Shown here: positions 3,089 through 21,174 of the stretch, one piece after another
Layout of the letters: each line of letters begins with the position of its first letter
How positions within the stretch are numbered: the stretch's first letter is position 1
Virus record (IMG/VR): IMGVR_UViG_3300022931_000029
Span: 1 to 21,896 of that record
Strand: one strand, 5' to 3'
DNA from: a virus
DNA length: 21,896 nt
Program-made: the position numbers and the translations under genes
Notes under the pieces: model-generated
What the model was told of the DNA's origin: nothing
The model's database searches: none
What the model saw: only the letters and a program-made list of their open reading frames with translations

Positions 3089-3161
3089 GCTCCAAAATAT
3101 CTTTCACTACTTGTGTCTGACCTTCTATAGTCCAATCACAAACTTCACAGGTATATCTCAT
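3057..3161 (-). CDS. 34-aa single C2H2 zinc finger microprotein
   Basis: MRYTCEVCDWTIEG... ends in LEHEKTHDEERR. C5-x2-C8 and H25-x3-H29 make one classical C2H2 finger occupying the entire protein. The ATG overlaps the RadA stop (AATGA), and the 3' end overlaps the HNH gene by 32 bp in another frame, so the gene fills the only gap in the operon. Single C2H2 fingers of this size are typical of archaeal viruses and plasmids and usually bind DNA or protein partners. Confidence 0.65.
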   Translation of the reverse strand: MRYTCEVCDWTIEGQTQVVKDILEHEKTHDEERR

Positions 3162-4201
3162 TCTACGTTAGACATTCCTCTAGCATCTAAAATGTATTCA
3201 GCATCTGCCATAGCATGTTCAGGTGAGTCTATCATTCTTGCCAGTCTTTTCTTACCACTCTTCTTAAAGTATAATCTATACGTACTTGCATGTGCTACGA
3301 CATTACCACCTATTGGTTTTATAGGATCACCAAACATCATGGCTGGATCACTTTGAACTTGATTAGTAAATACTACAGCACATCTAAAGTAAAAAGAAAT
3401 GTTCTTGATATGACTCATCAGTCTTGCTATCTGCATCTGTCTTTCTGCCAACGTTCCTCTTCCTAGATATTCTTCCCTGAACTGACCTATTGCTCCGTCT
3501 AATATCACTAGTTTAGGTTTCTTATCATCTAATATCTTACTAAGACCGTTGATAGTTCCCATTAGTTGTTCTGTATTTGGGCAGTATAGATAAGTAATTT
3601 GATTAAGATATTTACTTACCCCTTCGTCGTCTTCTGCGTATTCTCTTGCCTTTAACATCTCAGCAATTCTATTTGGTTTGAATGTATCTTCACAGTCTAT
3701 CCAAATGACATTGTTTCCATCATGGATTGTCTCAACTGTAAGAGAGTTACAGAATTGTGTTTTACCTGCTCCAAATTCTCCATATACCTCATAAGTTGCC
3801 TCTGGTCTTACACCACCGCTAATAAGGTTGTCAACTTCATCACACTTTGTTGAAATGACAGGATATGCTTTTTGATATGCCCACAGTTCATTTGTACTCA
3901 TGTCACTTCTCCTAATAAGACCGTTTTCTTCCAACAACTTTTGTGATTGAAATACCCAAGAGTCACAGGTTGGCTTTGCAACACCAGTAATTTCCTTGAT
4001 TTCCTGAGCACCTCTAATACAAAGGTCTATGAGTGAGGTTACACCGAAGGTCTCTAGTTTCTTCTGAGTGACAGAACCTACACCTTTAAGCTGATCTACC
4101 CCGAGTTCTAGATCAACAGTTTCTATCTCCGTTGTTTCCGTGGGAGTCTGAGTTTCTTCCAGTGTATTATCTGACTCGATAGAGTCGTCTTCAACAACCA
4201 T
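3158..4201 (-). CDS. radA: RadA recombinase
   Basis: A 347-aa RecA/Rad51-family recombinase that would form filaments on ssDNA and drive strand exchange. The N-terminus is acidic. A helix-hairpin-helix domain follows at about 33-60 (DQLKGVGSVTQKKLETFGV). The core has Walker A GEFGAGKT (about 141-148), the catalytic Glu in IDCEDTF, Walker B LVILD, FREEYLGRGTLAERQ, and the L2/C-terminal region TNQVQSDP...FGDPIKPIGG. The residue after the Walker B Asp is Gly, where Ser is usual. No clear FxxA polymerisation motif is seen in the linker. The ATG at 4201 was preferred over the in-frame GTG one codon upstream; a TATA-like TTAATATTG about 28 nt upstream could be an internal promoter. It lies 36-39 nt behind MCM in the replication operon. 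Confidence 0.92.
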   Translation of the reverse strand: MVVEDDSIESDNTLEETQTPTETTEIETVDLELGVDQLKGVGSVTQKKLETFGVTSLIDLCIRGAQEIKEITGVAKPTCDSWVFQSQKLLEENGLIRRSDMSTNELWAYQKAYPVISTKCDEVDNLISGGVRPEATYEVYGEFGAGKTQFCNSLTVETIHDGNNVIWIDCEDTFKPNRIAEMLKAREYAEDDEGVSKYLNQITYLYCPNTEQLMGTINGLSKILDDKKPKLVILDGAIGQFREEYLGRGTLAERQMQIARLMSHIKNISFYFRCAVVFTNQVQSDPAMMFGDPIKPIGGNVVAHASTYRLYFKKSGKKRLARMIDSPEHAMADAEYILDARGMSNVE

Positions 4202-4239
4202 CACACTAATTTAAGAAACACACTTCAATATTAATCTTG

Positions 4240-6210
4240 CTATATCCTTGTATATGTGCCGTCACCGTTGAGTTTTATGGCATTATTGTTCTCCCACTTT
4301 GATATGGTTGCCTCTGCCTTTTCCTTGGTCATGCCACTTGTTATCAATGCTTTCTCAAATTCTCTCAATTTTACATTGCCCTCTATGTTCTTACAAGAGT
4401 TCCATACTGTCAACACATCATGCTCCTTTACAGATTTACCGTCTACAAAGATCTGTGACTGTACACCACCCTGACTTATACTGCTTCCAAACGACTCGTA
4501 TTGTTTCTCAAGTAAAATTTTAATAATATTTATATCGCTTTTTTCAACTTCATTTTTAAAATGTAGTTTTGCATATGCCATACTAAGTCTTACTATTGCC
4601 TCCAACTGTCTTATACCTATTGGAATGTCACTCTTTGCACTGACATTTCTCATCTTTTCATAGATATCCAAAAGTAATTTCTTTGCTTCCTCGTTGAGTT
4701 TTGGACTGAAGGTTCTTGCATAGTTGATATACTTAGCCAAGTCATCCTCTTTTAAATAACAACGGTCACCCATAGACATTTCAAATGATTCCAAGATATG
4801 ATTTGCCTTAAGTCTGTCACTTGTCATGTTTACCTTGTCCTGAATTAACCATATCAAGTCAAACCTACTCAACAATGGTGCTGGCACGTTGATGTTATCT
4901 CTTAGAGAGTTGTCACTGTCATACATACCCCATTTTGGATTGGCTGCTGCAAGTACGCTTGTACGACTTGGTAGTGTCATTGCTATTCCTGCCTTTGCTA
5001 TGCTTACTGTCTGCTGTTCCATAGCCTCATGCATTGCACTTCTGTCCTGTTCACCCATCTTGTCAAACTCGTCTATGCATGCTAGACCGCCATCACACAT
5101 TGGCAGTACTCCTGCCTGTGCAATACTTCTTCCATCTGACATCTTTACAATACCTATCGTAAGTCCTGCTGCTGATGAACCTCTACCACTTGTGTATATT
5201 GACTTTGTAACAAGTTTGCTTGCAAATTTTAACAGTTCTGACTTTGCCATACTTGGATCTCCTATTAAAAACAGGTTGATATCCCCCCTCTTTTGAGTCT
5301 TAACTCCACCTGCCAACTGCAACAATATGCTTAACTTGATGTCATTATAGCCAAATATTGCTGGTGCAAATGAATTTATTATCTTGTCTATGAATCCGTC
5401 CTGTTTTGAGTCAACGGTAAGCTGCTTAATTTCAGTCTCTTCAGGCAGTGTTGGCTTGTTTTCATCCATATCCTGTACTGACATTACGTCTATAAACACC
5501 TCATGCTCGTTTTTCTTAAAGTCAACGGCAGTTCTAAACAAGCCTGTGATGAGTTTATTCTGTCCAACATATGATGTTCTGACCAATTTACCTACCAGTT
5601 TGCCTGTAAATATTACAGGTGAACTCTTTTTACTCTTGTCCATTGGCTCCTGCATGAGTATGGTCTGTATGTCATCTGTAATCATCTCACTGGTTCGTAT
5701 CATCATTTTTGCCTTTTTACATGCTGGATTAGAGCATATTGGAGGAACTATAACTCTATCAATATTGCACTTGGATTCATCTTCATTTCCACATAAAACA
5801 CAATCAAATTTAGCTTCTTTGATATAGGATTTTGGAGAATCTGTTGCCAATACCTGACACTCAAATGTAACTGTAGTATTTTCATGCTTGGTGTTGATAT
5901 CATGCATGTTCATAAGCAATTCACCGAGAAGATTTATTTTAATATCAGTAAATGAGGATTTGACTAATTCAAAGTCACCGTCTTTCTGTGTCTTTACACG
6001 AAAAATAGCATTACGTAATACTTCAATAAAGTCATTTGGGTACTGTAAATAAATGTCTATGAAACCATCTTGTGATGGGTTTATTGATATAGTACTGTTT
6101 GGTCTAAGACTGTCTATAACATCTGTATATCTATTATCTATTAATGCTTTAACTACACGGTCTACTTTTGCTGAGTCAGTATACTCTACTGTTTTATCAT
6201 AATCAGTCAT
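4240..6210 (-). CDS. mcm: MCM replicative DNA helicase
   Basis: A 656-aa archaeal-type minichromosome maintenance helicase, the hexameric 3'-5' replicative motor. The N-terminal domain carries a zinc motif with C137, C140, C159 and C164. The AAA+ core has Walker A GDPSMAKS (317-324; cellular MCMs usually have GDPGTAKS), Walker B ACIDEFDKM (about 377-385), sensor 1 in LAAANP (N424) and the arginine-finger motif LLSRFD (446-451). The C-terminus is a winged-helix domain of about 60 residues. Size and order match cellular archaeal MCM. Its start overlaps the RHH gene stop (ATGA, 4 bp). A viral MCM implies the virus brings its own helicase rather than borrowing the host one. Confidence 0.95.
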   Translation of the reverse strand: MTDYDKTVEYTDSAKVDRVVKALIDNRYTDVIDSLRPNSTISINPSQDGFIDIYLQYPNDFIEVLRNAIFRVKTQKDGDFELVKSSFTDIKINLLGELLMNMHDINTKHENTTVTFECQVLATDSPKSYIKEAKFDCVLCGNEDESKCNIDRVIVPPICSNPACKKAKMMIRTSEMITDDIQTILMQEPMDKSKKSSPVIFTGKLVGKLVRTSYVGQNKLITGLFRTAVDFKKNEHEVFIDVMSVQDMDENKPTLPEETEIKQLTVDSKQDGFIDKIINSFAPAIFGYNDIKLSILLQLAGGVKTQKRGDINLFLIGDPSMAKSELLKFASKLVTKSIYTSGRGSSAAGLTIGIVKMSDGRSIAQAGVLPMCDGGLACIDEFDKMGEQDRSAMHEAMEQQTVSIAKAGIAMTLPSRTSVLAAANPKWGMYDSDNSLRDNINVPAPLLSRFDLIWLIQDKVNMTSDRLKANHILESFEMSMGDRCYLKEDDLAKYINYARTFSPKLNEEAKKLLLDIYEKMRNVSAKSDIPIGIRQLEAIVRLSMAYAKLHFKNEVEKSDINIIKILLEKQYESFGSSISQGGVQSQIFVDGKSVKEHDVLTVWNSCKNIEGNVKLREFEKALITSGMTKEKAEATISKWENNNAIKLNGDGTYTRI

Positions 6211-10639: not shown

Positions 10640-12391
10640 TTAGACAGGTGACACATGGTCATCTAACATTCTTTTGGCATTTTTACCTTCTTTTGTATCA
10701 GGAAGTCCCCATTCTTCATTAAATCTATCTGTCATTTGTCGTGTATCTTTTTCACCCATACCTATTTTTACGCCCTCTCTTTTCAATAATTCTTTCATAC
10801 CATCAGTCATGGAATTAATTTCATCAATAGATTTCTTTTTTGCATTTCGTGCTGCAATTCTGGCACGTATTGCTTGAGTTTTCGGATCAGCATTATCAAA
10901 CTTTTCAGTTCCTTCTTTTTCCGTTAGTGGTGCATCTCTGTGAATTGATTCTTGATACGCTGGACTGTTTGTAATATAATCCATTCTCTCTTTAAGTTCT
11001 GTTGGTGTTTTATTCTCAATTTCTTTTGACATTTGCATATCTCCTTCTAATGAAGTTTTCTTATTGCCTTTTGGTTTTACTGCTACCGTTCTTGGCTGTG
11101 TAGTTTTTACACCGTCAATTGTAACTTGTTCTGGTGTACCTACACCCTTACCTCTAACAGTATGTTGACCGTCTTGTGTACGTACTCCTTTATCATTAAT
11201 ATGATTTGGTTTACCTTTTTTTGTACCTGCTGCTACTAGAGTAGAACCTGCATTACTAGCTAATGCTTTTACCAAGTCTAACTTTAGTGATATTGCCTTG
11301 AATATTGTTTCAGAAGCAGATTTTTTAACTTTTTTACCTGCTTGTAAAATATCTAACCCTGTTTGTGGTGCATCCACAATAGAATTTTCAAATTTACCTC
11401 TTGTTTCTTCAGAACCCGAATCATGACCACTATAGAATTCTCTTGTCATAGGATTTTCTTCATCTTGATGTTCTGTCCAGTCATCCATACCACCACTCCA
11501 TTTACCTCCTTTACCTGATCTTGCTCTTGCTTTTCTCTGAGTTTCAGAAACTACTGCATTTTGAAATTCAGGTGAATCAGCCTGTTCTTTTTTCCAAGAT
11601 GCACTTCCCCTTCTTGGTGCTTTTTTCATCAAGTCTAATTTCATAATATTCATTTTTAATATAATTTCATTTGCTTTAACAATAGGTGTACCATCTGGTT
11701 TTTTATTTGAAATACCTTTATGCTCGATAGGCACATAATCTGGTGTAGATCCACCAACTGGTGTTTTTCTACTATCAGGTTTATTTGGTGTTAAAATATC
11801 TTTTGCTGGTGTTTTACCTTTTGGTGCAGTTGCTATTTTTTTTGGTGTTTCATAATTAGTTGGTTCTGGTGTATGAGAGGTTTTATCTTGAGGATTGTTT
11901 GAATTCAATGTTGGATTTTGTTTACTTTCACGTAATGTTGCTTGTGCATCTTGATGTGCTCTACCATGTAATTTGTTTCTAGGCATTTTTGGTTCTTTTC
12001 CACTATGAGTACTACCACCTTCCTGTGTAATCATATCATCATTACTTTGAGGAATATTGTCAAATACACCATCTTTAGGAGTTATTGATGATGGTGTTGT
12101 ACCTGTTGGTTTTTGTGGATCTTTATTTTCAAATTTTTTACCTGTTGCTACCTCTGCTGCTGTAGCGTTTCTAGTTGTTGGTTGGTTGGAATGTGTTAGT
12201 TTCTTTTTTGGATCTTTTTTTGCTGCTTCAGCTGCTATGTTTGATATTTTACTTTCTGCTGCATGTTCATTTTCAGTTTGATTATTACTTAAAACGTTTA
12301 TACCAGCTTTTTTATTAGTGTAATTTACTTTCTTTTCCTTGTACTGAATTCCAAAACTGTTTAGTTCAAAATCTGGTTTACCGACTACCAT
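10640..12391 (-). CDS. 583-aa hydrophilic low-complexity putative virion protein
   Basis: Rich in K, T, N, P, G and Q with almost no long hydrophobic segment, so largely disordered. Two amphipathic motifs stand out: residues 241-257 (NEIILKMNIMKLDLMKK) and 360-376 (SETIFKAISLKLDLVKA). They share E-x-I-x-K-x4-K-L-D-L-x-K and look like duplicated docking helices. The C-terminal 150 residues are more helical and charged (ELKERMDYITN, AIRARIAARNAKKK). The start overlaps the stop of the 223-aa gene (TAATG) behind an AAGGA site. It is third in line after terminase. A scaffold, internal head protein or packaged effector is plausible. No family recognised. Confidence 0.7.
   Translation of the reverse strand: MVVGKPDFELNSFGIQYKEKKVNYTNKKAGINVLSNNQTENEHAAESKISNIAAEAAKKDPKKKLTHSNQPTTRNATAAEVATGKKFENKDPQKPTGTTPSSITPKDGVFDNIPQSNDDMITQEGGSTHSGKEPKMPRNKLHGRAHQDAQATLRESKQNPTLNSNNPQDKTSHTPEPTNYETPKKIATAPKGKTPAKDILTPNKPDSRKTPVGGSTPDYVPIEHKGISNKKPDGTPIVKANEIILKMNIMKLDLMKKAPRRGSASWKKEQADSPEFQNAVVSETQRKARARSGKGGKWSGGMDDWTEHQDEENPMTREFYSGHDSGSEETRGKFENSIVDAPQTGLDILQAGKKVKKSASETIFKAISLKLDLVKALASNAGSTLVAAGTKKGKPNHINDKGVRTQDGQHTVRGKGVGTPEQVTIDGVKTTQPRTVAVKPKGNKKTSLEGDMQMSKEIENKTPTELKERMDYITNSPAYQESIHRDAPLTEKEGTEKFDNADPKTQAIRARIAARNAKKKSIDEINSMTDGMKELLKREGVKIGMGEKDTRQMTDRFNEEWGLPDTKEGKNAKRMLDDHVSPV
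11264..11314 (-). repeat. second copy of ExIxKx4KLDLxK motif
   Basis: Codes for SETIFKAISLKLDLVKA in the 583-aa protein. It aligns without gaps to the copy at 11621-11671; the intervening sequence is low complexity. Confidence 0.5.
11621..11671 (-). repeat. first copy of ExIxKx4KLDLxK motif
   Basis: Codes for NEIILKMNIMKLDLMKK in the 583-aa protein. It matches the downstream copy at the E, I, K and KLDLxK positions. Confidence 0.5.
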
Positions 12392-13062
12392 TATCCTTTC
12401 CTTTCTTTTTCTTCTTCTTTGTCTTCTTCCTTATCTTTTCCTTGACCTTTGATACGACCATCTTTACCATAGACAGCATTAAATGTATCTCCAGTTGTTT
12501 GCATACCAGTTGCTGCTGGAGGACTTCCACCACTCATACCACCGTCTTTGCTTAACCATTCTTCCCATAATTGTTCTTGCATGGATTTATCAATTGTTTT
12601 AGGTTTTTTTTCTTCATGTTTAAACTGTTCTTTCTTTTCATCTTCAGTTTGTCCTTCATAGTCTTCTGTAGCATCAATGTCCATGTTTGTTTCAGGTGCA
12701 TGACTTGCCCTGCCTGCACTGCCATAATGTCCCTGTTCTACGCTGGATTTTAATATATCTTTGAGTTCTTTTGGAAGTTGTTGCCATGTTTTTGCGAGGA
12801 ATCTAGGACTGTAGGCGTGAATTTCGTGTAATGCAACAGTTCTTTCTTCCATAGACATGTCATTCCAAGTCTTGTTTACTAGTATATCTTTAATGAAGAA
12901 CGTATCGTTAATGTGAATATCTTGTAATATACCGTCATCTTTTACAACGGTAACAAAACTGGTGTTCATTTTGACTACTGTGCCGCTATCTTCTGCACCG
13001 TTTACAAAGAAATGAATGTTATCTCCGACTCTAGTTGAAGTTATTTTGTTCAAGTCTTCCAT
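12391..13062 (-). CDS. 223-aa protein: N-terminal beta domain, acidic tail, WxxW motif
   Basis: Residues 1-62 look like a small SH3/KOW-like beta barrel (VGDNIHFFVNGAEDSGTVVKM, SFVTVVKDDGILQD). Residues 63-105 are helical with KTWNDMSMEERTVALHEIHAY and RFLAKTWQQLPKEL. The rest is disordered and highly charged, ending in an E/K run. LWEEWLSK (165-172) is a copy of the SWExWLEK motif repeated in the upstream neighbour. It is three bases from that gene and overlaps the next start as TAATG. Probably a virion assembly protein from the packaging module; exact role unknown. Confidence 0.7.
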   Translation of the reverse strand: MEDLNKITSTRVGDNIHFFVNGAEDSGTVVKMNTSFVTVVKDDGILQDIHINDTFFIKDILVNKTWNDMSMEERTVALHEIHAYSPRFLAKTWQQLPKELKDILKSSVEQGHYGSAGRASHAPETNMDIDATEDYEGQTEDEKKEQFKHEEKKPKTIDKSMQEQLWEEWLSKDGGMSGGSPPAATGMQTTGDTFNAVYGKDGRIKGQGKDKEEDKEEEKERKG

Positions 13063-13063
13063 G

Positions 13064-14263
13064 TTACTTCTTCTCAGCCTTTAATCCTTTATAAGGTTTA
13101 TCATCAGTTTCTTCATGTTTTTCTCTTTTATCGTCAGTTTTTTCCTCTTTTTCAGGTAAAATATTAGCTTCATCCTCCTCATTGTTTACTGGTTCTTGGT
13201 CTAATCCAGTCAAATGTTGGTTACCAAATCGTGCATCGCCTGCTCCCTGCATCTTTTCTAGCCAAATTGTCCATGATTTGGCTGCATGTGCTATGTCTAT
13301 GTTAAGATGTTCTTTAGATTGAGATATATCATCACCTGTTTGTTCCACACCTTTAACATATTTTGGTTTTTTTGAAGTAAAATTTGGAGTATCTGTTGGT
13401 TTAAACATGCCTGTTCGTCCAGCTTCATCCAATCTTTCGTTTGTTGCTTCTTGTCCAATTTCTGCATTTAACTCGTTGACTTCAACTCTTGTATCTCTTC
13501 CTGATTCTTCTTTTAAATGAGTGTCAGTAGCAGTACTTTTAGGTTCATCCCATCTACCTTTTTCCAACCATGCTTCCCAACTCTTTAGTTTCTCTATCTC
13601 TTCCAACTTACCGTCAGTCAATTCCTCTAGTGATTCTTCCTCACTTTGTGCCTTTTCATCCTTTGCATCATCTCTGATAGTGGAACTGCTGAACTTACCA
13701 TCCCATTCATGCTTTTTTTCATCCTCTTTATGAGATGTTTCTATGGCATTGTTCTTTTCTAACCAATCTTCCCATGAAGCAGTTTTATTATCATATACCA
13801 TTGGATCTTCTTTTTCATCAGGAAATTCTCGTATAATTCTAGGAAACATTGTTGGTTTTTTCTTTATTGGAGGGTTTCCTTTTGGGAAATCATCATTAAT
13901 AGTTCTATTTTTTTTCTCTAACCATGATTCCCATGATTTTTTTCTACCTAACATTGGGTGTCTAGTGTCTTTTCCACTAGTTTTTGGTAATTCTTTAGAA
14001 CTTTCAGTTAAATCTTGTTCATATTTTAATCCTTTTAGATCTCTTTTTTTATTATTTTCATCATCAAATCTATTATTAAGTAATTTTGTTGGTATTTTTT
14101 TAAGTCCTTCTTCCATTGCAGCTCTTGACCTATGTCTACCTTCATGACCTACCACTTTATTATTTTTAAGATCTGTATCTAAAGTTGGTTTTGCTACAGT
14201 TCCACCATGTCTCAATCTATATTTATAATGTTCAACTGCACCTAATTCATCACCCCTTCTCAT
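13064..14263 (-). CDS. large hydrophilic protein with four SWExWLEK motifs
   Basis: In the uninterrupted frame from the ATG at 14263 this is 399 aa. The first 60 residues (HYKYRLRHGG..., VVGHEGRHRSRAAMEEGLKKIPT) resemble the ParB/Srx-like GHEGRHRxRAA element found in phage polyvalent proteins. The remainder is charged and disordered, punctuated by SWESWLEK (110-117), SWEDWLEK (163-170), SWEAWLEK (228-235) and SWTIWLEK (330-337). The same frame stays open for about 75 codons upstream (to about 14493), and a one-base shift there joins it to a leaderless 36-aa N-terminal fragment. The real protein is therefore probably 507 aa. Its place directly after TerL suggests a head-assembly or portal-associated role, but no portal domain is recognised. 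Confidence 0.7.
   Translation of the reverse strand: MRRGDELGAVEHYKYRLRHGGTVAKPTLDTDLKNNKVVGHEGRHRSRAAMEEGLKKIPTKLLNNRFDDENNKKRDLKGLKYEQDLTESSKELPKTSGKDTRHPMLGRKKSWESWLEKKNRTINDDFPKGNPPIKKKPTMFPRIIREFPDEKEDPMVYDNKTASWEDWLEKNNAIETSHKEDEKKHEWDGKFSSSTIRDDAKDEKAQSEEESLEELTDGKLEEIEKLKSWEAWLEKGRWDEPKSTATDTHLKEESGRDTRVEVNELNAEIGQEATNERLDEAGRTGMFKPTDTPNFTSKKPKYVKGVEQTGDDISQSKEHLNIDIAHAAKSWTIWLEKMQGAGDARFGNQHLTGLDQEPVNNEEDEANILPEKEEKTDDKREKHEETDDKPYKGLKAEKK
13253..13276 (-). repeat. SWTIWLEK motif, fourth copy
   Basis: The most divergent copy of the 8-residue WxxWLEK motif, residues 330-337 of the protein. Confidence 0.6.
13559..13582 (-). repeat. SWEAWLEK motif, third copy
   Basis: Residues 228-235, preceded by an acidic helix (LEELTDGKLEEIEKLK). 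Confidence 0.65.
13754..13777 (-). repeat. SWEDWLEK motif, second copy
   Basis: Residues 163-170, flanked by unrelated low-complexity sequence, so only the motif itself is conserved. Confidence 0.65.
13913..13936 (-). repeat. SWESWLEK motif, first copy
   Basis: Residues 110-117. The spacing between the four motifs is irregular (about 53, 65 and 102 residues), unlike a tandem domain repeat. Confidence 0.65.
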
Positions 14264-14618: not shown

Positions 14619-16001
14619 TTAACCGAATAGTGACTCTTTTAGAGCCTTACCCATACTCATAACATACCAACCTTCACCTGTATTCACTGCCCTACAGGCA
14701 AGTACAAGACTGTCGGGATAGTCGTCATGCTCATATGATTTAATCTTCATAATACCACTTTCTGTATACTCCCTTCTAAGATATGACAGTTGATATACCA
14801 TTTTGTTAATATTCTTTAGTTTAATCTTGTGATTTTCAAACAATAATCTGAGATTCTTGTACATGTCTGCCTTTTCCTGCAATGAGAACATTACACCTCT
14901 TGTAGGAATATCTCTTTCCCTGCACAAGTCTACCAGTCCACCACCTAGACCTGTCTCGTCTATGAACACGGTTTCCAAATGGAACTGTTGTACAAAGTCT
15001 CCTATTCTGCCTGCCACATCAACAACGTTACTTTGTGACTCTGCATATACTTCTTCAAGGTATACCACATCGTCCTCATCAACTCCTACAACCGTGAACA
15101 CTGTCTCATCACGACCTGTTCTGGCAACGTCCACACCCATATAGTATTTTACCCTGCCTTTAGGATGACCGTCAGTAAGTGCTTCCATGATTAGTGAGTT
15201 TGGTATGAGTGCATCTCCTATATCTAGGAACTCACCCTCTACCTCTTGCACATACTCCTCCTTTGTAAGTCTCTTAATTTCCTCAATGAATACAGGATCT
15301 TCCGCAATCAGTGGATTCATCATGGACTTGACATGGAACTCTGTCCACATGCCTTCTGGATTGTTAGGTTTGCTGTTCATACACGCCTCATAGAAGTAAC
15401 CTGACTTGGAGAACGGAGTTGACGTAAGCCATACCTTTGCCTGCGTAGCCATACCAGATGGAAGGAATGCCCTGAGTATGTCGGTCTTGATGAAGGAACA
15501 TTCGTCCGCAATAATAACGTGAGGAGAATAACCTCTCAGTCCAACACCAGTCTCACCTGTTGCTCTTGTGATGATCTTGCTCATTCCAGTATTGTCTAGG
15601 AAGTTAATCCACAGTTCACTCTGTGTGTTTCTTACTATGTAGCCTTTGAGAAATGCATTGTTGATAACCAGACTTCTAATCCTGTCGAACATGATGGTAG
15701 CCTGATTTTGTGTAGGTGCAGCGATAACTATTGTACACTCATGTTTTACCGTCTTTAACATTAGAGGTGCAAAGAATGCAAAGTGTACTGCCTTGGCGGC
15801 AGTTGACATGGTTTTACCCACCTGTCTTCCACTTCTATACACTATGAAACGGTCTTTACAGTTAACATATTTTTGATTGTAATCAAACAGTTTGTGTCCC
15901 AAAAATACTTCACTAAATAGACTGGGGTTCTTTGCACAGTCTGCAATGGTTTGCATGAACTCCTGTCTTTCTTCTACTTCCTCATTTGTTGGACGAGTCA
16001 T
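14619..16001 (-). CDS. terL: terminase large subunit (TerL)
   Basis: The 460-aa DNA-packaging motor of tailed viruses. The N-terminal ATPase has Walker A SGRQVGKT (57-64), Walker B VIIADE (162-167) and the coupling motif TSTP (193-196). The C-terminal RNase H-fold nuclease shows the acidic residues in GVDVARTGRDE (D291), VFIDETGLGGG (D348) and HDDYPDSLVLA (about D430). Length and domain order match T4-like/Terminase_6 family enzymes, and both activities look intact. It starts inside the 3' end of the TerS candidate gene (20-bp overlap) behind an AAGGGG site. It cuts concatemeric genomes and pumps DNA into the prohead. Confidence 0.97.
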   Translation of the reverse strand: MTRPTNEEVEERQEFMQTIADCAKNPSLFSEVFLGHKLFDYNQKYVNCKDRFIVYRSGRQVGKTMSTAAKAVHFAFFAPLMLKTVKHECTIVIAAPTQNQATIMFDRIRSLVINNAFLKGYIVRNTQSELWINFLDNTGMSKIITRATGETGVGLRGYSPHVIIADECSFIKTDILRAFLPSGMATQAKVWLTSTPFSKSGYFYEACMNSKPNNPEGMWTEFHVKSMMNPLIAEDPVFIEEIKRLTKEEYVQEVEGEFLDIGDALIPNSLIMEALTDGHPKGRVKYYMGVDVARTGRDETVFTVVGVDEDDVVYLEEVYAESQSNVVDVAGRIGDFVQQFHLETVFIDETGLGGGLVDLCRERDIPTRGVMFSLQEKADMYKNLRLLFENHKIKLKNINKMVYQLSYLRREYTESGIMKIKSYEHDDYPDSLVLACRAVNTGEGWYVMSMGKALKESLFG

Positions 16002-17348: not shown

Positions 17349-17468
17349 CTATTGAAGTCCTCTTGATTGACAGTCACATGCACTACATCCATCTGGAGAT
17401 GAATGTTGATTCTGATGGTGTTCGCAAACATCACATTTGCCACCGACCGTATTTGTTAAATTTGCCAT
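17349..17468 (-). CDS. 39-aa Cys/His-rich microprotein
   Basis: MANLTNTVGGKCDVCEHHQN... with C12-x2-C15, H17, H18, H22, then C28-x2-C31-x-C33. This pattern fits a zinc ribbon or knuckle. It starts at a TAATG overlap with the BppU-like gene and has a strong Shine-Dalgarno (GAGGAG) 8 nt upstream, so it is the last gene of the tail operon. Function unknown; perhaps a small tail assembly factor or regulator. Confidence 0.6.
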   Translation of the reverse strand: MANLTNTVGGKCDVCEHHQNQHSSPDGCSACDCQSRGLQ

Positions 17469-17821
17469 TAATAACTCTCCTCAATGGTGAAATTAAAAGT
17501 TTTCGTTTGTTCACTCATGTCACCATCACCGTCAAATATCTCTACTTCACCCTCCCAAATACCTGCTTTTTCTATTGTCACGTCAGATGCTGCTAGTCTA
17601 TATGAGACTATTCCGTTTGGTCTGTCCTCAAATACCAGTACACCGTCTATTATAAGGGTTCCATCTGGCTTCCATACCTTCCATTTACCTGTAGTATATG
17701 TCATATTATCTTGTAGAGACTTTTTGACATTGTTAGAATCCACTATGGTGATGGTCAATACTGCCCTGTTTCCCACTTTTACAAAGAACTCTGTGGCTCT
17801 TCCTGTTAAATTCATGCTCAT
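17468..17821 (-). CDS. BppU-like / Ig-like tail protein
   Basis: A 117-aa all-beta protein: ATEFFVKVGNRAVLTITIVD..., WKVWKPDGTLIIDGVLVFED, GIVSYRLAASD, AGIWEGEVEIFDGDGDM. This is the layout of the N-terminal domain of phage baseplate upper protein BppU (DUF2479-like), where the phrase x-PDGT-hhhDG is followed by an A.GxWxGEhxh strand. The domain normally attaches receptor-binding tips to the tail. It follows the large repeat protein with a 4-bp overlap and a GGAG site 8-9 nt upstream. Probable baseplate or fibre connector; residue identity is by eye only. Confidence 0.65.
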   Translation of the reverse strand: MSMNLTGRATEFFVKVGNRAVLTITIVDSNNVKKSLQDNMTYTTGKWKVWKPDGTLIIDGVLVFEDRPNGIVSYRLAASDVTIEKAGIWEGEVEIFDGDGDMSEQTKTFNFTIEESY

Positions 17822-20502
17822 CGGTCTACTCCTTTGGTTGTCTCATCTCGTTTAAATAGTTTTACATCGACTGCTCTTGCGAATGTGCCTACATCTCTGG
17901 TCGTTCTGTTAAGACCATATCTTAGTACTTTTACCAATGAATGTACAGCATTTACTGTTTCACTAATAATTATTACCTTTCCTATTGCACTTTCCAATGT
18001 CTCTGATGATGACATACTCTCACTGATCATTCTGACCATGACTCTAATTCTTCCTCTGAACTGAGATACGTTTACAGTATCGTTGTTGGTTACGAATATA
18101 CGTTTAAAGTAATTCATTGACTCTGATGGTATTATTATATCTGCAATCATTCTGACTATGTTTCTTATCCTGCCTCTAAAGTCTGTTACTCCAACACTGT
18201 CATTTCTAATCCTGTTAAGTACTCTGACTCTGTCATTGACTTCTAATAATGTGGTAACCTCGCTTATCATTCTGTTGATTAACTTGACTCTGACATTGGT
18301 TTCGACCAATGATATACTGTCACCAATCATTCTGACCATTACCTTAACTCTGCCTCTGAACTGAGTAACACCTACAGATTCGTCTCTTATTCTGTTAAGT
18401 ACTCTGACTCTGACATTGGTTTCAGATGGGGTGACTAACTCACTGATCATTCTTACAATCTGTCTTATTCTGCCTCTGAACATGTCAATGGCAACACTTT
18501 CTGTAATCATACGGTTAATCAATCTGGCTCTATTATTGGCTTCACTTATTGACAATATGGCACTGTCTATTCTGTTGATTATTTTTGTTCTTGTGTTAAC
18601 TTCTGCCAATGACATGCTCTCACTAATCATTCTAACTATGGTCTTAATCCTGCCTCTAAAGTCACTTACAGATACTGAGTTAGATATTATTCTGTTGATG
18701 AGTTTAACTCTGTCATTTACCTCTGACATGTTTATAATATCACTAATTACTCTAATAATCTCCTTAATCCTGCCTCTAAAGTCATCTACGTTGACACTTT
18801 CATCTCTTATTCTGCTAAGTGTTCTAACTCTATCATGTGCTTCTGTTAATGATACACTTTGACTTAACATTCTAATCATGGTCTTGACCCTGTCGTTGAC
18901 CTCACTGATTGACAATGAGTCAGATATCATTCTGTTTATCACTTTGACTCTGTCATTTATTTCACTGATTGACAACGAGTTGGATACAATTCTATTGATT
19001 ACCTTGACCCTGTCGTTGACCTCACTGATGGATAAGTTGTTGCTAATTATTCTAACGATATCTCTAATTCTTCCTCTAAAGTCAGCTACATCTACACTGT
19101 CCACTATATGTCTTAGTAATACTCTAGATCTGTCATTGACCTCACTCATAGACATGTCGTCAGACAACATTCTGATAAGACTCTTAAATATACTAGTAAC
19201 TTCGCTTACTGCAACACTTTCTCCTATTGCCCTTACAACGTCTCTAATTCTTCCTCTAAAGTCATCTACAGATATGGATTCATTTCTCATTCTGTTAAGT
19301 TCTCTAACTCTTATAGGTTCAGCAGTAATATTCCATTGGAATACATTATTTTGATATACTGTATATTTTTGTATTGATATTACATCATTGTTAATTCTAT
19401 TCTTAATCATTGATGTTATTGGGAAGTCAATATAGAATACAATCTTACTGAATACATTTCCTTGGAAGTGACTAATACCAGCATATACTGTCTCCACAAT
19501 ACTTCTAATGAGTGGTCTAACCCTGTCATTAATCTCTGTCATATTAACAGTTAGTTGCACAGCCTTGTTCAATCCTCTGGTAATATTATTAGTTACAGTC
19601 ATTCCTATTGAATCTGAAATCATACGGTTGATTATCTTAGCCCTATCGTTAGTTTCTACCGTGTTTATTGTGTCAGATGTCGTGTTGAAACGGTCTCTAT
19701 ATGTGTTGAAACTGTCACTCATATTGGAAATCTCACTAATAATTCTGCTGATTAATCTACCTGTTCCTCTAAAGTCAGTTGAGTTTATAATATCACTAAT
19801 GGCACGACCAAGTACTCTACTTCTATCAACACTAAGTGTGATACCAACAGTGGCAGAAGTCATTCTACTCATCACTTTACTTCTATAGTTTGTAACAGTC
19901 ATACCTACTGTTTCACCAATCACGCGTGCCAAGAGGGCTCTTGCTCTATCTATAGACTCCGTTATTCCTACAGTGTCACCAACAACTGCACCCCTGCCTC
20001 TAAGTTTAAGACTTGTTAAAGTAATGTTTATGATATCACTTACTGTTCTTGCAAGTACCCTGCCAGTTCCTCTATAGTCAGCCGAGTTTATAGTTTCTGA
20101 TATCATTCTTGCTAACATTCTTGAGGATGATATTATGTGAGACGAACTTATAGTCTCTATTATTACCCTAACAATGCTTTTTCCTGACGTCGACTGGAAC
20201 ACATTGACATCAGCCATGTTGTCTTGGAATACTGTGAGTGAAATTTCATATCCTTGGAATGTACCCCTGCCATTGCCTGTGAATACACCACTGACATCAA
20301 ACACATCATCTTGAAAGTTTGCAACAAGTCTTTGAAACACGCCTATTTGGAATACAGCACCAATGATTTTACGAAATATTGTTTGGTAGGCATTGCCTGC
20401 AAATGTATTGGCTTGAAATACCTTTTTAGTACCTAATAATGTCTGAGCCTGATAAGTGTCTTTTTGACATACAGTCTCTTGGAATACTGCTCTAAGAGCC
20501 AT
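17818..20502 (-). CDS. 894-aa tail/fibre protein made of 20-residue repeats
   Basis: The protein has four parts. Residues 1-105 hold FQ-centred repeats (AVFQETVCQ, KVFQANTFAG, AVFQIGVFQ, TVFQDN, NVFQS). Residues about 102-340 hold 12 units of about 20 aa. Residues 341-391 hold a second FQ-type island (HFQGNVFSKIVF, VYQNNVFQW). Residues 392-850 hold 23 further units with no length drift. Two unit types alternate: S-x-SEVNDRVKxINRxISxS and S-V-x-DFRGRIRxIVRMISES. A perfectly regular 20-aa period with small polar/hydrophobic alternation suggests a beta-solenoid or fibrous shaft. The FQ segments resemble AFQ repeats seen in phage structural proteins. It sits between the fibre proteins and the BppU-like protein, so a tail shaft, fibre or tape-like role fits. 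Confidence 0.75.
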   Translation of the reverse strand: MALRAVFQETVCQKDTYQAQTLLGTKKVFQANTFAGNAYQTIFRKIIGAVFQIGVFQRLVANFQDDVFDVSGVFTGNGRGTFQGYEISLTVFQDNMADVNVFQSTSGKSIVRVIIETISSSHIISSSRMLARMISETINSADYRGTGRVLARTVSDIINITLTSLKLRGRGAVVGDTVGITESIDRARALLARVIGETVGMTVTNYRSKVMSRMTSATVGITLSVDRSRVLGRAISDIINSTDFRGTGRLISRIISEISNMSDSFNTYRDRFNTTSDTINTVETNDRAKIINRMISDSIGMTVTNNITRGLNKAVQLTVNMTEINDRVRPLIRSIVETVYAGISHFQGNVFSKIVFYIDFPITSMIKNRINNDVISIQKYTVYQNNVFQWNITAEPIRVRELNRMRNESISVDDFRGRIRDVVRAIGESVAVSEVTSIFKSLIRMLSDDMSMSEVNDRSRVLLRHIVDSVDVADFRGRIRDIVRIISNNLSISEVNDRVKVINRIVSNSLSISEINDRVKVINRMISDSLSISEVNDRVKTMIRMLSQSVSLTEAHDRVRTLSRIRDESVNVDDFRGRIKEIIRVISDIINMSEVNDRVKLINRIISNSVSVSDFRGRIKTIVRMISESMSLAEVNTRTKIINRIDSAILSISEANNRARLINRMITESVAIDMFRGRIRQIVRMISELVTPSETNVRVRVLNRIRDESVGVTQFRGRVKVMVRMIGDSISLVETNVRVKLINRMISEVTTLLEVNDRVRVLNRIRNDSVGVTDFRGRIRNIVRMIADIIIPSESMNYFKRIFVTNNDTVNVSQFRGRIRVMVRMISESMSSSETLESAIGKVIIISETVNAVHSLVKVLRYGLNRTTRDVGTFARAVDVKLFKRDETTKGVDR
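17953..19329 (-). repeat. 60-bp coding tandem repeats, 23 units
   Basis: Exactly 20 codons per unit, in register across the whole block. Runs such as NDRVKVINR and DFRGRIR recur. DNA copies are diverged but share stretches like CCTCTAAAGTCA and TCTGTCATTGAC, so the array probably grew by duplication and then drifted. Confidence 0.85.
19483..20199 (-). repeat. 60-bp coding tandem repeats, 12 more diverged units
   Basis: Same 20-residue period, with one unit of 21 residues near residues 180-200. The units are more diverged than in the other block, with TV/TI in place of SL/SM and the FRG type rare. Confidence 0.75.
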
Positions 20503-20505
20503 TGG

Positions 20506-21174
20506 TTATACCTCAGTCCAAGTGCCTGAATTTAATACATAGGATTTGTTAGTGTCAGTTTCATAGAATATAGAGCCATCTTGAATATTTAATGCGACAA
20601 CTGCTGATGCAGGACTACTATCAAACTTTTGTTTAATATTTCTATCAGGTCTATAAGCGAATGGGTTTTTCCAAACAGGTGTTGTATTTGTAATTAAACT
20701 ATTTGAAGAAGAATAACCTAAAAGATGATTTGAAGAATCACCACCAGCATAAGTAAAAGCTATTACATCACCTGATGCAATTTGGTGAAACGTTGTTAAG
20801 GTATGTTCATTATTAGCTCTAGTTCCATTAGTTCCACCACCATTAAGTAAAGATATATCTTGCCCTGAACTTGTAGCTACTTCAACATTAGAACTATTGA
20901 AAATTTTACAATAATAAGTTCCTGTTGGACTACCTTCTTTATTTCCATAAAAAATAACTTTATTGATATATTTACCAATTCCACTATGTCCAGCATCTAT
21001 TCGAACACCTGTTCTTCCATCACTTGCTCCTGATCCATAAATTGCAGATGTTGATACATCGGATTCAGATAGTGCATCATAAATTGCCTCTGTAGCTGGT
21101 GATACATTAATTGTTAAACTTGTTTTTTCAGCACTCGTTCCTCTTATCCTATTACCTGCAAGATATTCCACCAT
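20506..21174 (-). CDS. 222-aa beta-sandwich tail fibre protein
   Basis: The N-terminus MVEYLAGNRIRGTSAEKT is a phrase I associate with marine viral fibre proteins. The middle is Ser/Thr/Gly-rich beta sequence (INKVIFYGNKEGSPTGTYYCKIF, IASGDVIAFTYAGG) like a carbohydrate-binding jelly-roll. The C-terminus (GSIFYETDTNKSYVLNSGTWTEV) matches the short beta motif that ends many phage tail proteins (DxFxETDTNKxYxxxxxxW). It is followed after 3 bp by the repeat protein, preceded there by a GAGGT site. Likely host-recognition or fibre decoration. Confidence 0.7.
   Translation of the reverse strand: MVEYLAGNRIRGTSAEKTSLTINVSPATEAIYDALSESDVSTSAIYGSGASDGRTGVRIDAGHSGIGKYINKVIFYGNKEGSPTGTYYCKIFNSSNVEVATSSGQDISLLNGGGTNGTRANNEHTLTTFHQIASGDVIAFTYAGGDSSNHLLGYSSSNSLITNTTPVWKNPFAYRPDRNIKQKFDSSPASAVVALNIQDGSIFYETDTNKSYVLNSGTWTEV

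Follow-up and report, generated by a model that had tools for sequence, protein, structure and literature searches.

A gene in the stretch of viral DNA analyzed here (a virus record of 21,896 bases, from now on the window) codes for a protein made of repeated units of about 20 residues, and similar arrays are found in the same genomic place in many related viruses. The repeat family is real, widespread and apparently unnamed. Judging from the sequences and the gene neighborhood, the protein probably forms the shaft of a fiber on the tail or baseplate of a marine archaeal tailed virus, and the family looks like an undescribed one of adjustable attachment fibers. Repeat-built viral fibers are already known, but this repeat fits none of the families searched and holds a strict 20-residue register through hundreds of units. 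The viruses that carry it are marine, and ammonia oxidizers are their probable hosts.

Layout of the array protein

The features of the gene and its neighbors are collected in Table 1. A preliminary description of this DNA had proposed a 20-residue period for the product of the gene at 17818-20502, and this is borne out. The BLOSUM62 self-similarity of the protein peaks at lags of 100, 40, 20, 60, 80 and 120 residues (from 0.74 to 0.31, with 0.74 at lag 100 and 0.66 at lag 20), while the best value reached at any lag by 1000 composition shuffles was -0.40, which puts the period far beyond chance. In the FQ region at the N terminus (residues 1-105), taken alone, the 20-residue period is absent. 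The near absence of drift described earlier applies in full to residues 392-851, but the first array contains a slip and the units are interrupted by stretches that do not repeat. The parse also placed one isolated unit near residue 357.

Table 1. Features of the array gene, its product and nearby genes in the window.
Feature	Residues	Coordinates	Strand	Details	Basis
Array protein	894 aa	17818..20502	(-)	36 units of ~20 residues	ORF and dynamic-programming parse
N-terminal FQ region	1-105	20188..20502	(-)	10 FQ/YQ
First array	100-340	19483..20205	(-)	4 + 8 units, one 1-residue slip	Parse
Irregular stretch and second FQ island	341-391	19330..19482	(-)	3 FQ/YQ
Second array	392-851	17950..19329	(-)	23 units, exact 20-residue register
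Two C-terminal 9-residue repeats		17830..17883	(-)	FARAVDVKL FKRDETTKG	Read by eye
BppU_N-like baseplate protein		17468..17821	(-)	Start overlaps the stop of the array gene	Pfam match
Upstream fiber-like protein		20506..21174	(-)	No family match	Context
Large terminase subunit		14619..16001	(-)	Anchor for finding relatives

Two other elements of that description have to be given up. The two types of unit do not alternate but form an irregular mix, in which the Phe-type units of the second array lie 2 to 5 units apart and are never adjacent. Nor is an FQ block followed by an array a special, duplicated module, because in the relatives FQ clusters occur from 0 to 6 times, at many places or nowhere.

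A family of repeat proteins in related viruses

Relatives were collected by means of the terminase of the window, giving 60 distinct loci in viral contigs. One of them, a 34,069-base IMG/VR contig (L002), has the array gene at 100% identity and reaches further upstream of it than the window does; the contig of the window was counted once, and L001 and L009 (the same contig as L002) were left out before the array scan. An ORF with the 20-residue array was present in 42 of the 60 loci, the weakest case being L039 (E 0.004). Among the remaining 18, three (L031, L034 and L052) carry there another giant repetitive ORF, whose rhythm is 13 residues. Most of the other array-less loci (L049 aside) stop short of the site or at neighboring genes. 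These different giant proteins at the place of the array (L034:1-3678 and L052:2-6097, and also in L031; e.g., LAKVVYTQTVDTD) have 1226 and 2032 aa in L034 and L052, respectively, both cut at the 5' end. It is as if the entire shaft had been exchanged for another repeat protein.

After removal of copies (L011, L056, L026 and L061), 38 proteins were left for the unit counts, with 1046 units. The step from one unit to the next is exactly 20 residues in 900 of 1009 cases and 38 residues in 49 of the 1009. Genes uncut at the 5' end contain between 11 and 57 units, and the cut gene of L012 at least 105. A unit number varying between relatives had been put forward as support for length control, and such variation was indeed found, with whole-unit differences in close pairs.

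The protein had also been described as belonging to no recognized named family, which agrees with the libraries searched: the sequence families of Pfam, PHROG, NCBIfam and PDB gave scattered, mutually inconsistent weak matches and none that was consistent over the array. BLAST of the array protein and two relatives against named phages gave no match, a weak negative because the low-complexity filter may partly mask the query. A literature search found no paper on the protein, which is not proof of absence. Ser/Val-rich 20-residue repeats of a similar kind may occur in archaeal surface proteins.

Anatomy of the repeat unit

The consensus of the unit across the family is ISESRNRLRGLVRIINETVS. 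Its strongest positions are 13, occupied by Arg or Lys (0.90), and 11, 15 and 19, which are hydrophobic (0.89-0.91); positions 17 and 3 are acidic (0.75 and 0.63, respectively) and Ser or Thr is found at 18. Apart from the ordinary (b) units there is a variant with Phe at position 4, often as Phe-Asp-Gly or Phe-Arg-Gly, an 18-residue type near ISESFRKSWSRSFSETVS, units of 21 residues, and the FQ islands of about 15-20 residues. The extra residue of the 21-aa units falls at positions 2-8 in 14 of 18, and the 2-residue deletions fall there in 23 of 32 (the 18-residue set, n = 32, takes in a few poorly fitting segments). Of 20 island entries, 18 come after position 19 or 1-3. In the 732 b units, 69 of 104 prolines are at positions 5-8, and the glycines of ordinary units concentrate at 4, 10 and 20. 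Taken together, the length changes, the entry of the islands and the placement of proline and glycine suggest that the unit has two zones: positions 11-1 are conserved and rigid, whereas those from about 2 to 10 are variable, loop-like and tolerant of change.

The sole strong neighbor effect between units is the mutual exclusion of the Phe type. No two Phe units are adjacent in 807 neighbor pairs, against 23.5 expected from shuffling the units within runs (n = 2000, sd 3.7, minimum 11). For this test L038, L008 and L017 were also dropped and L042 (inside L040) and L062 (a part-copy of L017) were kept; the count is zero with the last two dropped as well. Spacings between Phe units of 2, 3, 4, 5, 6 and 7 were found 15, 27, 17, 5, 11 and 7 times, with no preference for odd or even. 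The exclusion might be caused by bulky loops that clash between adjacent rungs.

Possible fold of the array

Two structural models, both of low confidence, disagree. AlphaFold2 on the array alone (monomer, 67 in-register rows, namely 65 of 68 relative segments, the query and one further segment of the window) modeled each of the 8 units as one helix, at about positions 2-18, followed by a break at 19-20 (pLDDT 47.7, pTM 0.19). With the full-length protein (monomer, 22 rows) the array was modeled as strands with a 20-residue rhythm (pLDDT 42.7, pTM 0.29). Foldseek with the latter model retrieved nothing at E <= 0.001 (best E 0.088, TM 0.24 or less), and its listing, mainly of beta-solenoids, should be taken to describe the shape of a low-confidence model and not as a sign of kinship.

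Sequence statistics are also mixed. Small-polar residues alternate with a period of 2 (power 0.70 in b units and 0.49 in F units), a near-2 band reached by none of 2000 position permutations. Hydropathy alone gives no inside/outside alternation and has a period of 3.33 residues (power 0.45; near-3.6 band p = 0.013). The units have 17% of A+K+Q+E versus 47% of T+S+V+N+I. Covariation, computed without L001, L009, L011, L056, L026, L061, L038, L008, L017, L042 and L062, contains many helix-like i+3/i+4 pairs (1-5, 5-9, 3-7, 9-12, 14-17); a search for pairs typical of antiparallel hairpins gave a weak signal. Between equivalent positions of neighboring units (i,i+20) it is about zero (mean z 0.1 and -0.06), and this counts against a stacked solenoid because stacking would predict coupling.

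We consider that the fold is probably mostly beta, with the units forming either the rungs of a solenoid or a trimeric beta fiber, and prefer it over an alpha/beta coiled coil because of the strands of the full-length model, the composition together with the placement of Pro and Gly, the period-2 alternation and the loop-like indels. The two beta forms would differ in length: by general figures a rung of a solenoid would add about 0.5 nm, making about 17 nm for 36 units, and an extended trimer about 1.5 to 2.7 nm per unit, or about 50 to 100 nm in total. The preliminary idea of one unit being one rung of a beta-solenoid stands as possible; the full-length strands speak for it, and the helices of the array-only model and the near-zero i,i+20 covariation against it.

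A trimeric alpha/beta coiled coil, the best of the alternatives and an unlikely one, would build each unit from a helix over positions 1-17, some 17 residues long, and a beta-layer of 3 residues at 18-20, the chain crossing round the trimer axis every 20 residues, with 20 = 9 + 11 or 6 + 14 (heptad/hendecad). Passages of PMC4786415 (Hartmann et al., 2016) describe beta-layers in phage fibers, and the breaks at 19-20 of the array-only helices and the helix-like covariation are what such a structure would give. For the hydrophobic positions 1, 8, 11, 15 and 19, the register e-(h)-a-d-a-beta2 is a better match than one alternative tried, in a mapping that is our own reasoning from those passages, but the beta2 and e residues are unlike the published motif and the 18-residue units do not fit 6+7n or 9+7n in a simple way. 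Among the 732 b units there are 69 Pro at positions 5-8 and 189 Gly at position 10, all inside the would-be helix, and A/K/Q/E are few. A Ser/Thr/Asn/Asp-x-x-Asp/Glu capping box shows no enrichment (0.346 observed vs. 0.395 expected). The array-only model, moreover, has a pLDDT of only 47.7. 

Far less probable is a monomeric alpha-solenoid of paired up and down helices with a structural repeat of 40 residues. The linker would measure only 2-3 residues, and the spacing of Phe units lacks the odd/even preference; what points to such a solenoid are the helices of the array-only model and some weak hits of phmmer/hmmsearch on designed helical repeat proteins, none of them better than E 0.2. Alpha-solenoid folds are usually predicted well, and here the confidence of the model stayed low.

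Gain and loss of units

Indels were surveyed in 23 pairs of relatives with more than 50% identity, leaving out proteins of more than 1500 or less than 200 aa. Among the 71 indels, which come from overlapping pairs and are not independent events, 20 residues was the commonest length (15), with 13 of 1 residue, 7 of 2, 7 of 9 and 2 of 18. Those of 9 and 18 residues were mostly at the C terminus. L033 and L038 (90% identity) differ by one 20 gained, one 20 lost and one C-terminal 9-residue repeat gained, and L054 and L055 (84%) by 20, 21, 1 and 18. Whole units thus come and go in the array, and 9-residue repeats are added at the C terminus.

The C-terminal 9-residue module is seen as tandem repeats in many relatives (e.g., L025:5796-7052 and L050:2385-6650, FNRVKSSRL YNRVRGAKL FNRRKSTKG), and its copy number differs between close relatives.

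The changes between L033 and L038 at codon positions 1, 2 and 3 (81, 45 and 78) are unlike those of other pairs, for example L005 and L008 (27, 12 and 72), and may reflect relaxed or diversifying selection, or unit exchange. The array could also be taken for low-complexity coding sequence that slippage of the DNA has expanded and that has no ordered function as a shaft. The tandem 60-bp period of the DNA and the nearly equal first- and third-position changes of L033/L038 could be cited for this view, but it is very unlikely: in the array gene of the window, identity between the DNA copies at lag 60 is only about 43% while the protein register is kept, other pairs change mostly at third positions, and diverged viruses keep the register too (900 of 1009 steps).

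Neighboring genes and probable host

A BppU_N-like gene directly follows the array gene in all 38 of the kept relatives, its frame starting between -142 and +32 bases from the end of the array gene; the profile was built from 24 motif-found cases, so that 14 of the 38 are independent. The window neighbor passes the Pfam cut-off (PF10651, 29.9 bits vs. 23.1, E 5e-7). In L002:653-9997, upstream of the array gene, one gene looks by eye like a tryptophan halogenase, and several others code for glycine-rich or fiber-like proteins, some with a common short start, e.g., YLAGNRIRGTSAEKT.

The host is likely a marine ammonia-oxidizing archaeon. The best named-phage match of the terminase is Halogranum tailed virus 1 (30.5%), and amoC was found in 3 of 28 related records, the window's own virus not being among these. 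Passages of PMC7678222 deal with radA-bearing marthaviruses of marine ammonia-oxidizing archaea, and parts of PMC5474096 and PMC8651126 provide background. The terminase alignment found no relative and no provirus in genome_contigs.

Other genes of the window can be described briefly. Archaeal-type recombination and replication genes are seen at 3158-4204 (RadA-like, by eye) and 4240-6210 (MCM). After the terminase come highly charged proteins (13064-14263, 12391-13062 and 10640-12391), the first of which repeats a K-SWE-WLEK motif; none had a convincing family match. A 334-aa protein (542-1546) looks secreted, with a signal-like start (by eye), and no relative of it was found in genome_contigs.

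The FQ regions

The pattern FQxx[AV]FQxx[AV]FQ occurs in viral contigs in at least 71 ORFs, among the 80 loci listed. Among the matches listed it mostly opens short unrelated viral proteins, and 3 of the ORFs with the motif have the 20-residue array. This fits the N-terminal FQ region being a docking motif common to many viral proteins. A search of named phages with the motif gave no useful match (one at E 5 in one search and none in another), and no paper on it was found in the literature search.

A putative adjustable fiber

The fibrous shaft suggested earlier finds support in the gene context, the length of the array and its variation by whole units, with context carrying the assignment to a fiber. 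Each 20-residue unit would be one structural block, whose loop zone would take the Phe-Arg/Asp-Gly variants, the prolines and the length changes of 1-2 residues, with FQ islands near its start. The count of whole units, gained and lost in evolution, would set the length of the shaft. The N-terminal FQ region probably docks the fiber, with the BppU_N-like neighbor as the probable socket on the baseplate, and the distal part is probably made up of the 9-residue repeats at the C terminus.

A bolder reading, which we put forward as doubtful, is that of a new fiber fold in which a few kinds of block are combined by a kind of grammar; the virus might add, drop or reorder whole blocks and so tune how far it reaches and how its surface loops are spaced. 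The exchangeable block types would be plain, Phe-loop, the 18-residue Trp type and FQ island, and the rule that Phe-loop blocks are never neighbors would, just as tentatively, belong to this grammar. The Phe exclusion and the whole-unit indels are in any case testable handles on how a virus sets the length of its fiber, and the 20-residue block could serve as a regular protein building unit.

Comparison with known systems

The triple beta-spiral shafts of the adenovirus fiber and reovirus sigma1 are similar in having short strands, a tight turn plus a variable exposed loop, and a length set by the number of repeats. Their repeats have about 15 residues and a conserved Gly/Pro turn; the array repeat has 20 residues, and no sequence match was found in the searches. 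Closest in shape to the low-confidence full-length model are RsaA, CsgA, GH55 and the IcsA passenger, which we take to be of the beta-solenoid class, but with no Foldseek match at E <= 0.001 and no i,i+20 stacking signal in the array.

The alpha/beta coiled coils share with the array protein the construction of a fiber from repeats and, in the array-only model, a break of ~3 residues per repeat. As given in passages of PMC4786415, their repeats are motifs of 6-9 residues within heptads, [aliphatic]-A-T-K-[polar]-[DE], whereas the array has [ST]-[VIL]-[SNQ]-[IVL]-[ST]-[DE], a 20-residue repeat and Pro and Gly inside the would-be helix. The BppU_N modules of phage baseplate and receptor-binding proteins (PF10651) have a counterpart in the neighbor of the array gene; here, however, the domain is a stand-alone protein of 117 aa and the array protein itself has none. 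Finally, set beside published genomes by description, these viruses have radA, a marine origin, a tailed morphotype and archaeal replication genes in common with the marthaviruses and other tailed viruses of marine Thaumarchaeota, as these appear in passages of PMC7678222, and some of the relatives resemble them also in carrying amoC.
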